From Acrocarpospora corrugata (GTDB taxonomy: Bacteria; Actinomycetota; Actinomycetes; Streptosporangiales; Streptosporangiaceae): a stretch of DNA of 64,000 bases. The DNA lies in NCBI RefSeq assembly GCF_009687845.1, contig NZ_BLAD01000041.1, positions 186,001 through 250,000 of the forward strand, in the 5' to 3' direction. Below the pieces are notes generated by a model. The model saw only the letters and a program-made list of their open reading frames with translations, ran no database searches and had not been told where the DNA came from. Each line of letters starts with the position of its first letter. Positions within the stretch are counted from its first letter, which is position 1. This document shows, piece after piece, positions 55,142 to 59,151 of this stretch. The position numbers and the translations under genes are program-made.

Positions 55142-55146
55142 CTCAG

Positions 55147-55248
55147 GCATGTGATGCCGGGCATGTGATGCCGGGCATGTGATGCCGGGCATGTGATGCC
55201 GGGCATGTGATGCCGGGCATGTGATGCCGGGCATGTGATGCCGGGCAT
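55147..55248. repeat. Seven tandem 14-bp units, each an inverted repeat
   Basis: Seven identical 14-bp copies, GCATGTGATGCCGG, run from 55147 to 55244, plus a partial copy. Viewed as GGCAT-GTG-ATGCC plus one G, every unit is a 5-bp-stem hairpin. There is no coding function. The array stands in a 333-bp gap between the small gene and the convergent SDR gene. Copies are identical, so it is young or homogenised. Confidence 0.95.
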
Positions 55249-55426: not shown

Positions 55427-56341
55427 TTAGCGGTAGCCCGTTACGTCGGCGGGGAGGCCGGCGTCCTGAACTTCGACCACGTAGCGCCAGGCGTCGGGCT
55501 GGCTGCCGTCCAAGTCGGTGAATCCGTAGGTCTGGGCCAGTTGACCGCTGGAGAGAGAGTGGCCGTTCCAGCGGGAGACGGCGGGGTCGGAGGCGAGGGC
55601 GGCGACGGCTCGGCCGACGTAGAACGGGGTTTCTGAGATGGCGAAATGGGGTTGGGCCTTGAGGGCGTCCTGCCAGGTTTCTTCGGTCACGCCGAAGAGC
55701 TCCAGCATCAGCTCGGAGCGCAGCCAGCCGGGGGTCAGCGCGATGGCGGTCGCGCCGTGGGGGGCGAGTTCTTTGGACTGGGCGAAAGCCATGCGGAGGA
55801 CCGACGTTTTCGCCAGGTCGTAGAAGAAGGAGATCCGGTAATTCTCGGAGTTGTACTTGGCGGTGCCGTCGGTTACTTCGATGACCAGGCCACCCGGGTT
55901 CTTGATGAGCAGCGCCAGGGCGTGATGGCTGGTGACGATGTGGGTGTCGATGGCCAGCCGCAGGATGTGCAGGCCCTTCTCCAGGGAGTGCTCCCAGAGA
56001 GGCTGGTCCCAGCTGAACAGCTGCTCGCCGCCCCAGATGTTGTTGACCAGAATGTCGAGGCGGCCGTGGTCGGCGTCGATGCGCTCGACCAGGGCCCGCA
56101 CCTGATCGGAATCCAGATGGTCCACCTGCACGGGGATGCCCTGGCCGCCCGTGGCGGTGACGAGGTCGGCGGTGTCCTCAATGCTTTCCGGGCGGTCGAT
56201 CTCGGAGCGCTGGCTTCTGATGCTGCGCCCAGTCACGTAGACCGTGGCGCCGGCCGCGCCCAGCTCCACGGCGATGCCCCGGCCGGCCCCGCGGGTGGCT
56301 CCGGCGACAAGGGCGATCTTTCCGGCGAGTGGCTTGCTCAT
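55427..56341 (-). CDS. Short-chain dehydrogenase/reductase
   Basis: A 304-residue SDR. The cofactor motif 'GATRGAGRGIAVELG' and 'TGRSIRSQR' favour NADP; 'LDILVNNIWGGEQLF' replaces the usual NNAG, and the catalytic Tyr/Lys lie in 'SFFYDLAKTSVLRM'. The C-terminal half is longer than in classical SDRs, with 'GWLRSELMLELFGVTEETWQ' as in a known actinobacterial subgroup. Its start codon overlaps the stop of a broken GNAT gene (ATGA), so the two were once an operon. Confidence 0.88.
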   Translation of the reverse strand: MSKPLAGKIALVAGATRGAGRGIAVELGAAGATVYVTGRSIRSQRSEIDRPESIEDTADLVTATGGQGIPVQVDHLDSDQVRALVERIDADHGRLDILVNNIWGGEQLFSWDQPLWEHSLEKGLHILRLAIDTHIVTSHHALALLIKNPGGLVIEVTDGTAKYNSENYRISFFYDLAKTSVLRMAFAQSKELAPHGATAIALTPGWLRSELMLELFGVTEETWQDALKAQPHFAISETPFYVGRAVAALASDPAVSRWNGHSLSSGQLAQTYGFTDLDGSQPDAWRYVVEVQDAGLPADVTGYR

Positions 56342-56747
56342 CGGGCGAGCTCCTTGCTGTAGCGGTGGGTGGGAACACTGACGGGACCGGTGGCGGTCGA
56401 GGCGGCGTACTCAAACGGACCTTCGTCGATCCAGCCGTTGCGCTGATAGAACCGTCGCGCCCGGAGATTTCCGGCGACCACGGCCAGCCAGGCGTTCCCC
56501 GATGCCGTTTCGCCACATAGACCTGTTCGACCTCGTCGTCCAGCACCATGACGAACCCCGCCACCTCGCCGTTCACGGTCGCGACCGCGGTGTCGCCGAC
56601 CCGCTGCGCCGCGCGCACACCGAACGACTCCTCGGTCCGCACGGCGACCAGTTCATCCGGAACATGCCCTAAATGCGCATCCCCCCACCCGTCGAACCAG
56701 ATCTTCGCGACATCCCGCGCATCCTCCTGCTTCGCGGGACGTACGGT
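56338..56747 (-). pseudogene. GNAT acetyltransferase pseudogene (internal frameshifting deletion)
   Basis: From GTG 56747 the frame encodes a GNAT N-terminus up to 'VEQVYVAKRHRG', the start of acetyl-CoA motif A. There the frame fails. A second frame then gives the matching C-terminal half, 'NAWLAVVAGNLRARRFYQRN' followed by 'GWIDEGPFEYAASTATGPV', ending at a TGA that overlaps the SDR start. The missing segment, about 20-25 residues, is the acetyl-CoA loop. So a frameshifting deletion has inactivated the gene, while the ATGA junction survives. A sequencing error alone would not explain the missing residues. Confidence 0.75.
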
Positions 56748-56846
56748 CACGTCCTCTTCGTCGCTCAACACGCCAGCCACACTAACCACGAGGTCCGACA
56801 GAATCGGCTCTGGTCACCGGCACCGGCGGGCGTGGACACTGATGCG

Positions 56847-57083
56847 ATGGTCAAGACACTGTGCCCCAAGGACTACAGCGAGGCGGTCTACGTGGGCCAT
56901 TTCTTCCGTACGGGCGTCCCCGTGGTCATGGACCTCACCGGGCTGCCGGACAGCGACGCCAAGCAGTTCGTGGATTTCGCGGCCGGTCTGGTGTTCGGCC
57001 GTGGCGGCGACATGGACCGGCTGTCACCCAAGGTGTTCCTGCTCATGCCCCGCGGTATGAGCAACCGCCCTTCGGCCCCATGA
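56847..57083 (+). CDS. Minimal SepF-domain protein
   Basis: A 78-residue protein matching only the SepF core: 'CPKDYSEAVYVGHFFRTGVP', 'VVMDLTGLPDSDAKQFVDFAAGL' and 'VFGRGGDMDRLSPKVFLLMP'. SepF tethers FtsZ to the membrane; normal SepF has an N-terminal amphipathic membrane helix and a linker, both absent here. Several SepF paralogues occur in Streptomyces. The stop overlaps the ATG of the next small gene (ATGA). No good ribosome site is visible for ATG 56847; GTG 56832 is possible. Confidence 0.75.
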   Translation: MVKTLCPKDYSEAVYVGHFFRTGVPVVMDLTGLPDSDAKQFVDFAAGLVFGRGGDMDRLSPKVFLLMPRGMSNRPSAP

Positions 57084-57367
57084 CTTTCGCATTCCCTGAA
57101 TTCCCCGAGCCGGCGGCGATCGACGCGGACATCTCCTGGACGGCGGTGTTCGAGAGCTACAACCAACGTCTCGATGACGTGTACTACATCGTGACCACGC
57201 GCGAAGGCGTTCGGGAGGTCGCTCGTTTCATCGTGATGGTGGGTCTGCATTGGGCGGGGGACGATTGGCGTGGCCCCGAATTCGTTCGGCGCCTGCGTCA
57301 GGACATCCACGAGGTGGCGGCCACCGGCCGTACCAACACGGACTATCGCGGGAAGACGATGAGCTGA
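57080..57367 (+). CDS. Unknown protein coupled to the SepF-like protein
   Basis: A 95-residue protein starting 'MTFAFPEFPEPAAIDADISW', rich in aromatic residues, with the helix 'REGVREVARFIVMVGLHWAG' and a polar C-terminus. There is no signal peptide. I do not recognise a family. The ATGA overlap with the SepF-like gene means it is translated together with it, hence a partner or target of the SepF core is likely. Confidence 0.6.
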   Translation: MTFAFPEFPEPAAIDADISWTAVFESYNQRLDDVYYIVTTREGVREVARFIVMVGLHWAGDDWRGPEFVRRLRQDIHEVAATGRTNTDYRGKTMS

Positions 57368-57529: not shown

Positions 57530-58045
57530 ATGGACCGTTACGAGGGGTTCCAGGAGTTCGTACACACCCGCCAGCAAGCACTGATGCGGACCGCGTACCT
57601 GCTGACCGGAAACGCCCACCTCGCCGAAGACCTGCTGCAGACGGTCCTGACCAAGGTCGCGACCCGCTGGCCCAAACTGGCCCGGGACGCCAACATCGAG
57701 GCGTACGCCCGAAAAGCCCTGGTGAACCAGCACCTGTCCTGGCGCAGGCGAAGACACGTCGAATTACCGACCGGCACCCTGCCAGAACACGGGCGATCCC
57801 ATGACGAAACGACCGTACGCCGCCTGGCGCTGCGTCAGGCGCTCGCCAAGCTGACCCCGCGTCAGCGGACCGTCCTCGTCCTGCGCTTCTACGAAGACCG
57901 TACCGAACACGAGACCTCCCAGTTGATGGGCTGCTCGCTGGGCACGGTCAAGAGCCAGACCCACCACGCGCTGGCCCGCCTCCGGGCACTCGCCCCCGAC
58001 CTGGCCGAACTACTCGCCGACGTACAGGCGGAGGTGCGCCGATGA
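57530..58045 (+). CDS. SigE-type (ECF-like, SigE70) RNA polymerase sigma factor
   Basis: A 171-residue sigma factor with region 2 at residues 10-75 ('FVHTRQQALMRTAYLLTGNAHLAEDLLQTVLTKVATRW') and region 4 at 108-158 ('LPRQRTVLVLRFYEDRTEHETSQLMGCSLGTVKSQTHHALARLR', written from memory of the frame as 'LTPRQRTVLVLRF'). It belongs to the actinobacterial SigE-like class. The ATG overlaps nothing upstream. Its stop overlaps the next ATG (ATGA), so it is coupled to a membrane protein gene that likely controls it. Confidence 0.92.
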   Translation: MDRYEGFQEFVHTRQQALMRTAYLLTGNAHLAEDLLQTVLTKVATRWPKLARDANIEAYARKALVNQHLSWRRRRHVELPTGTLPEHGRSHDETTVRRLALRQALAKLTPRQRTVLVLRFYEDRTEHETSQLMGCSLGTVKSQTHHALARLRALAPDLAELLADVQAEVRR

Positions 58046-59151
58046 ACACGCTTCGCGATGAACTACGGGGAATCGCCGACGAGGCCCCCCTGGTCGACCT
58101 GGGCGCCCGCGCGCTCAGACGCGCCAAACACCGCCGCGCCACCACCGCGATACTGACCGTCGCGGCCATGGTCGCGATTATCAGCGGCGGAACCGCGACG
58201 CTGTTCACCGGCGGCCCGCTCCCCGACCCCATCGTGCTGGTCCCGATCCCCGAAACGGTCGTCCCGCTCCCGGAAAACAACGTCCAGCCACTGGCGGGCG
58301 CATATCGCCATCGATGCCTGCCGGATGACCCGACCAGATGCGAGGGCGTGGAATGGCGCGTCTTCACCACCTCCGGTTCGACCTACCGCCTCACCGACGC
58401 CGGAACCGCAAGCCCCGTCGCGATCACCCCGGACGGCCGCAGAATCGCCTACTGGAACGCCGAGCAGCAAACCTTCAACCTCCGTGACCTGGCCACCGGC
58501 CAAACCTGGCGAGCACCGATCACGGTCCGCAAAGCCGATATGGACGGCGAGAATTTCCTCCGCCCCTCACCCGACGGACTACACCTGATCTACACGAGAT
58601 TCGGTGGCGGAAACCTTTCGCAATACAGCGTCCTGATCGATATGCAGTCCGGCAAGACCACCAAACTCAACGCCGCCTGGTTCCCCGTGAGCATCGGCAC
58701 CGGCGGCACCCCCATCACCCTGGTCAGACCCTTCGACGACATCACCAGAATCTGGGTCCTGGGCCACGACCCGATCACCATCGACGACTTCACCTACGAA
58801 TTCAGCGCCCTCCACGCCAACGGCCACACCCTCGCCTGGATCGACAAGGCCCTCGACCCCAACAGGTCACCCATGGTCCAAGCAACCGGCTCAATCGCCA
58901 CCGTCGACGCCATCACCGGCATCACCTCCCCACCAGTGCCAATCCAGGGCATCCCCACAACCTCACGCCTCACCAGACTGGGCGCCTGGGCAAGCCCCAC
59001 CGAGGTAACCGCCTTGACCACCTCAGATTCCCCAACCACCCCCCGCCAATCCACCCTGTACGCGATAGACATCCACACCGGCAAAACAAGAAAACTCCAA
59101 ACCCTCAACAACACCGAAGCCTCCTCCACCCAACCGGGAGTCATCACCTGA
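58042..59151 (+). CDS. Membrane protein with beta-propeller-like exterior, probable anti-sigma partner
   Basis: A 369-residue protein. The short cytoplasmic part (residues 1-33, 'MNTLRDELRGIADEAPLVDL') precedes one transmembrane helix ('ATTAILTVAAMVAIISGGTATLF') and an exterior domain of WD/TolB-like repeats ('SPVAITPDGRRIAYWNAEQ', 'LRPSPDGLHLIYTRFGGG'). This layout is typical of partners of SigE-type sigma factors; there is no zinc motif of classical RskA type. It overlaps the sigma gene by 4 bp. Control of the sigma factor is inference. Confidence 0.8.
   Translation: MNTLRDELRGIADEAPLVDLGARALRRAKHRRATTAILTVAAMVAIISGGTATLFTGGPLPDPIVLVPIPETVVPLPENNVQPLAGAYRHRCLPDDPTRCEGVEWRVFTTSGSTYRLTDAGTASPVAITPDGRRIAYWNAEQQTFNLRDLATGQTWRAPITVRKADMDGENFLRPSPDGLHLIYTRFGGGNLSQYSVLIDMQSGKTTKLNAAWFPVSIGTGGTPITLVRPFDDITRIWVLGHDPITIDDFTYEFSALHANGHTLAWIDKALDPNRSPMVQATGSIATVDAITGITSPPVPIQGIPTTSRLTRLGAWASPTEVTALTTSDSPTTPRQSTLYAIDIHTGKTRKLQTLNNTEASSTQPGVIT

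Follow-up and report, generated by a model that had tools for sequence, protein, structure and literature searches.

In actinomycetes without FtsA and ZipA, it is SepF that anchors FtsZ to the membrane. The stretch of the Acrocarpospora corrugata genome analysed here (64,000 nucleotides, hereafter the window) encodes a very short SepF-like protein, which we call mini-SepF, and a second small gene that overlaps its end. The locus raises the question of what a SepF may do without the part that makes it a membrane anchor, and whether the overlapping gene makes up for the loss.

A short SepF core and the gene that overlaps it

The mini-SepF gene (window positions 56847..57083, + strand) occupies the coordinates of the predicted open reading frame and encodes 78 amino acids. 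Residues 2–71 match the SepF family model PF04472 with 68 bits (E 8.7e-19, cut-off 27), covering positions 1–70 of the 72 in the model, and the tail after the core is very short (8 residues). Together with tree grouping and residue conservation (see below), this match identifies the protein as a SepF core lacking the anchor and linker; the original prediction, which had read the gene in just this way, is confirmed by the PF04472 match and by the lack of an anchor motif upstream, and the FtsZ-contact residues are kept. The host assembly (9.27 Mb) contains three SepF genes, mini-SepF being one of them. Another lies downstream of the FtsZ tail, between YggS-like and YggT-/DivIVA-like genes (named by eye), and its product starts with MAGAMRKMAVYLGLVED; the third has MGAVRKVASYLGLGG close to the N-terminus of its product. 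Among 200 genomes sampled from the bacterial family, at least 45 encode mini-SepF, a count that omits G025 and G062, whose copies have an anchor, and includes G027, G091 and G147, which were placed in no tree. Within the genus, its dN/dS values of 0.07–0.53 (10 pairs) indicate purifying selection. Its recurrence in the family, its single tree group and this selection confirm, at the level of sequence, that the core is not a chance resemblance.

The overlapping gene, here called the partner (57080..57367, + strand, 95 amino acids), begins within the stop of mini-SepF (ATGA), and a 4-bp start/stop overlap (ATGA or GTGA) is present in all four genus loci carrying both genes. Within the genus, purifying selection acts on the partner, too (dN/dS 0.10–0.35, 6 pairs), and AlphaFold2 predicts for it a β4-α domain, four strands and a helix, with a mean pLDDT of 91.7. 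Searches with the window protein gave nothing in Pfam or PHROGs up to E 1 and nothing above cut-off in NCBIfam, and Pfam is also negative for three relatives from the genus and for the relative from NEAU-GS5. Among sub-threshold candidates, we rejected a herpesvirus US2 model for the relative encoded by a metagenome-assembled genome (MAG; 14.1 bits against a cut-off of 25) and an NCBIfam CcdA model (13.3 bits against 100). Foldseek searches of the predicted structure against the PDB gave nothing at E ≤0.001 (best 0.087), and VIA-align 2 applied to Foldseek's top 1000 chains gave no Z ≥5 (best 4.3). The most hydrophobic 19-residue stretch of the partner has a Kyte-Doolittle mean of 0.73, which is not that of a membrane helix, and no relatives were found on plasmids or viral contigs.

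It is possible, if rather doubtful, that mini-SepF and the partner form a two-part unit of their own, with the partner providing localisation or regulation. The overlap seen at all four loci, the purifying selection on both genes and the confident model of the partner agree with such a unit, but the distribution of the partner and its lack of a membrane segment speak against it. The partner is found in five of the 200 family genomes and together with mini-SepF in four, all from one genus, and a profile search recovered it from 4/297 genomes of the order and from a single one of 396 genomes of the phylum (the host itself). One genus member with mini-SepF, G106, was searched for the partner and none was found. 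Conversely, NEAU-GS5 (L006, G051) has the partner on a different contig from its two SepFs, and in a MAG labelled Burkholderiales the partner lies behind a protein with sub-threshold HEAT matches, with no SepF beside it. Given this rarity, the SepF-free occurrences and the absence of a membrane segment, the partner is an addition bound to its lineage rather than the missing anchor. The original prediction of the overlapping gene as a general partner supplying localisation is not supported for a predicted domain that lacks a membrane segment and accompanies mini-SepF in four of at least 45 genomes, all of one genus, and the neighbourhood conservation of the pair, which had been proposed as a check, amounts to the presence of both genes in 4/200 family genomes. 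Absence of the partner elsewhere had been set beforehand as a refutation: for the pair this is largely what we see, whereas mini-SepF itself recurs.

Two further features of the vicinity may be recorded. Just downstream of the pair (57530-59151), a gene for a SigE-family ECF sigma factor (166 bits) overlaps a gene with a sub-threshold β-propeller match, and positions 55146-55248 hold a perfect tandem array of the 14-bp unit GGCATGTGATGCCG (7.4 copies, 100% matches), the unit itself being nearly palindromic.

Probable contacts with FtsZ and possible pairing of cores

What the core may do is suggested by work on SepF of Corynebacterium glutamicum. Mutation of K125 and F131 abolished FtsZ binding (PMC7118173), and G114 is described as buried at the dimer face (PMC7118173, PMC8178401). 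Aligned to this protein, G47, R58 and F64 of the window mini-SepF correspond to G114, K125 and F131, respectively, and in a comparison limited to these three positions all 43 distinct mini cores have Gly, Arg and Phe. Anchored SepFs hardly differ: among 34 anchored cores, the K125 position is Arg in 33 and Lys in one, with Phe and Gly kept. A single FtsZ was found in the host genome, and its C-terminal end, ELDVPDFLK, is intact. Mini-SepF thus probably binds the FtsZ C-terminal tail, although its contact residues could be conserved for some other reason. A comparable protein has been made by hand: the C. glutamicum core, stripped of anchor and linker, still binds the FtsZ tail (Kd 15 µM), bundles FtsZ and forms foci, and it neither complements nor localises to mid-cell (PMC7118173); mutant SepF is also reported there to mix with native SepF in cells.

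Could mini-SepF have left cell division altogether, its fold being used for some other cytosolic task? No division gene was recognised by eye in the flanks of about 1.5 kb on each side of mini-SepF, as such a change of role would lead one to expect, and the neighbouring genes vary by genus and agree among some close relatives, so that no fixed partner is seen. However, the pocket residues are identical to those of anchored SepFs, and we consider a departure from division unlikely.

Four genomes (G071, G151, G165 and G175) encode proteins of 156–169 residues in which two mini cores are fused, again without an anchor (L053 1258-1767, L058 1474-1959, L061 2023-2493 and L062 1727-2236). The model of one of them (mean pLDDT 73, pTM 0.56) is too weak for the packing of the cores to be judged. 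Compared with the PDB, it gives 16 matches at E ≤0.001, all of them SepF structures and each spanning approximately one core, and strands and helices follow one another in a closely similar order in the two halves. The fused proteins are consistent with a working unit of two cores. The fused proteins excepted, the frames end 0–25 residues past the mini core. Mini-SepF has just a short tail at the place of the regulatory helix α3 of C. glutamicum SepF; once that helix is removed, the FtsZ tail reverses polymerisation only in part (PMC7118173).

We also weighed a toxin-antitoxin-like arrangement, in which division is blocked by a free SepF core that the partner keeps in check. The two genes are small and overlapping, and the free core of C. 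glutamicum fails to support division (PMC7118173). Yet the co-occurrence expected of such a pair is not seen, both genes being present in 4 of at least 45 mini-SepF genomes; the 41 without the partner show that mini-SepF can do without this particular antidote. Relatives of the partner are likewise lacking from PHROGs, plasmids and viral contigs, and a toxin-antitoxin role is very improbable.

Distribution, promoter-like box and upstream DNA

We consider mini-SepF to be a functional SepF core, and its phylogeny and upstream DNA bear on this reading. A tree of 79 cores places 45 mini rows together on one side of a branch supported at 100/100, separate from canonical SepF and SepF2; the fused proteins contribute two rows each, and L090, a canonical SepF, bears a mini label here and is labelled canonical in a second tree. 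Both trees leave out L077 and also L010, which a contig end truncates, and the core pattern did not pick up L073. Four rows are unmatched by the motif: L059, a genuine mini-SepF outside the count of 43, and L070, L074 and L077, these three comprising two anchored SepFs and one broken copy. In the second tree, with two Streptomyces paralogue classes added, 25 mini rows still group at 100/100. The inner order of the trees is unsure, as they rest on 70 columns and a midpoint root.

In a sample of 345 genomes of the class, searched at E 1e-20, a threshold that more diverged mini-SepFs would escape, no match above 79.2 bits was obtained outside the family; the matches from outside the family (up to 79.2 bits) sit within long open frames like that of canonical SepF. 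Seven plasmid and eight phage records matched mini-SepF, all at less than 60% identity; of two of these, one is a gut scaffold labelled as phage that encodes an anchored canonical SepF, and the other is a paralogue from a Streptomyces plasmid. From its patchy presence in the family, mini-SepF is not essential to filamentous growth. In a sample of 71 genomes, all ten with mini-SepF have two further SepF genes, compared with 20 of the other 61 that have at least two (not corrected for relatedness).

Many genera share the layout of the DNA before mini-SepF: TTGAC, 16–17 bp, [GC]AGACT, 6 nt and the start codon. A box [GC]A[GCA]ACT lies within 24 nt before codon 2 in 28/43 mini-SepF loci, compared with 1.2% in shuffles, and in 20 of these 28 it is spaced 6 nt from the start; a −35 element TTG[AG][CT] at 16–17 bp before the box is present in 14/43 loci and in none of the shuffles. 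Among 111 other genes of the same loci, the box was found in one, each gene having been scored at its longest start, which may differ from the true start. The box as defined is lacking from 15/43 loci, among them a group with a longer frame (L049, L052 and others). In the window, a −10-like box GACACT (56835..56840, + strand) lies 6 nt before the ATG; no match to the −35 element TTG[AG][CT] exists, and the weak −35-like hexamer TGGTCA (56811..56816, + strand), 18 bp before the box, qualifies by position only. A reading of the window box as a WhiA site (GACAC) was rejected because most relatives carry GAGACT or CAGACT there. The position of the box points to a mini-SepF mRNA that may well be leaderless, and a transcript that began at the ATG would have no space for an anchor.

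Were mini-SepF the decaying remnant of a sepF duplicate, its patchy occurrence would be accounted for, and one disrupted copy is indeed known, a second mini-SepF of G157 (L077 1517-1750, − strand) with its frame broken at the start and an intact copy also present. Decay is nevertheless highly improbable in view of the dN/dS values, the three key residues kept in every distinct core, the 45 rows in one fully supported group and the promoter-like box at 28/43 loci.

An anchor motif, searched in any frame within 600 nt upstream, is present in 37/40 anchored SepFs and before none of the 51 mini cores, a set that includes second cores of fused proteins, duplicate loci, the broken copy and the locus truncated at a contig end. 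There is some circularity in this control, since the anchored rows had been labelled by a similar in-frame motif; independent of the circularity are the absence of the motif from the other frames of the mini rows and the grouping by core sequence alone. In the window, the frame of mini-SepF extends without a stop to an upstream ATG at 56673 (136 amino acids), and the added stretch is largely antisense to a divergent GNAT gene and has no anchor motif. In G106, a MazG-like gene (30.3 bits, cut-off 27) ends 22 bp upstream of mini-SepF, and in a group exemplified by L049, L052, L054, L055, L057 and L076 the frame permits about 25 extra N-terminal residues, still without an anchor. Judged from this upstream DNA, the anchor is genuinely missing from mini-SepF, and the frameshift hiding a normal SepF N-terminus that the original prediction had named as its refutation was not found. 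That an anchor is encoded upstream and masked, whether by a frameshift, by an overlooked start codon or by faulty assembly, for which the frame open to 56673 would leave space, is next to negligible, as against it stand the lack of an anchor in any upstream frame, the identical layout in many separate assemblies, the promoter-like box immediately before the start and the gap of only 22 bp in G106. The divergent GNAT acetyltransferase gene (56178-56789, − strand) is 64 bp short of its A. macrocephala counterpart and out of frame, reflecting either a pseudogene or an assembly error.

A proposed role and its place among SepF systems

The account that we favour, and hold to be probable by a modest degree, is that mini-SepF acts in the cytosol as a SepF core, binding FtsZ tails, mixing with anchored SepFs, or both, and so tunes the tethering of the Z-ring. 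The free-standing core would remain in the cytosol, where two cores would pair through the α-α face (the buried glycine is kept), as in other bacterial SepFs, each core binding one FtsZ C-terminal tail by way of the conserved pocket Arg and Phe. The anchorless dimer, or a mixed dimer with an anchored SepF or SepF2, would then link or occupy FtsZ tails off the membrane, and tethering would thereby be lowered or limited, tuning the site and firmness of Z-rings in hyphae. The two further SepFs of all ten mini-SepF genomes in the 71-genome sample are what a modulator of existing SepFs would need. In Acrocarpospora, the partner would share its mRNA with mini-SepF, ribosomes probably restarting at the 4-bp overlap, and it may serve mini-SepF as a cofactor or restrain it as a brake; mini-SepF in other genera can dispense with it. 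A fuller version of this account, in which a dedicated, leaderless-expressed soluble core (a fused dimer in some species) is a counterweight to anchored SepF through competition and mixed dimers and the Acrocarpospora partner is its purpose-made controller, is offered tentatively, with the balance leaning somewhat against it.

Mini-SepF shares with SepF proteins such as that of C. glutamicum (PF04472) the core domain, the buried dimer glycine and the FtsZ-contact Phe, with a conservative Lys-to-Arg replacement. It differs in being without the N-terminal amphipathic anchor and the linker, and in that the window gene is not adjacent to ftsZ. It is comparable in its truncation to the engineered SepF-ΔML of C. 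glutamicum, which still binds and bundles FtsZ (PMC7118173); SepF-ΔML, however, is a construct that retains residues to 152, including α3, whereas mini-SepF is natural.

Extra SepF paralogues alongside canonical SepF are also a feature of Streptomyces, another group of sporulating actinomycetes, in the form of SepF2 and SepF3. The family designated f18 was assigned to Streptomycetaceae on the strength of a protein, encoded by 26 of its genomes, that is 65–90% identical to a Streptomyces plasmid protein. In one extra SepF class of these genomes, inspection of 13 sequences by eye revealed no anchor motif, and another extra class has one. Mini-SepF (25 rows), the anchorless Streptomyces class (13) and the anchored extra class (5) form separate tree groups, each with 100/100 support, in a set that contains no sequence named SepF2, SepF3, SflA or SflB (70 columns, midpoint root). 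Proteins of the anchorless class carry some 50 conserved residues at the N-terminus, whereas mini-SepF begins at the core. SepF2 and SepF3 are presumably the proteins also named SflA and SflB, and a study of sflA/sflB mutants reportedly connects them with branching and ectopic DivIVA and FtsZ. Three SepF-like proteins have been described in S. venezuelae, with sepF3 a WhiA target (PMC3781837), and SepF2 as bound by DynB in Streptomyces, both SepF-like proteins being termed of unknown function (PMC8748795). The claim that such a protein has no described function is wrong in part: SepF-like paralogues have been described in Streptomyces, though PMC8748795 calls their function unknown.

The nearest known kind to mini-SepF is the SepF-like paralogues of Streptomyces, and SepF paralogues with no evident anchor are already known in outline. 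For the combination of bare cores, a promoter-like box and fused doubles, we found no description in the open literature, most subscription papers being outside the scope of the search. For studies of the SepF dimer, the fused two-core proteins provide a tool in a single chain. A natural, conserved, anchor-free SepF would be the in-cell counterpart of the hand-made truncation, and with such a counterpart at hand it becomes a testable question whether the formation of Z-rings in multicellular hyphae is set by the balance between anchored and free SepF cores.
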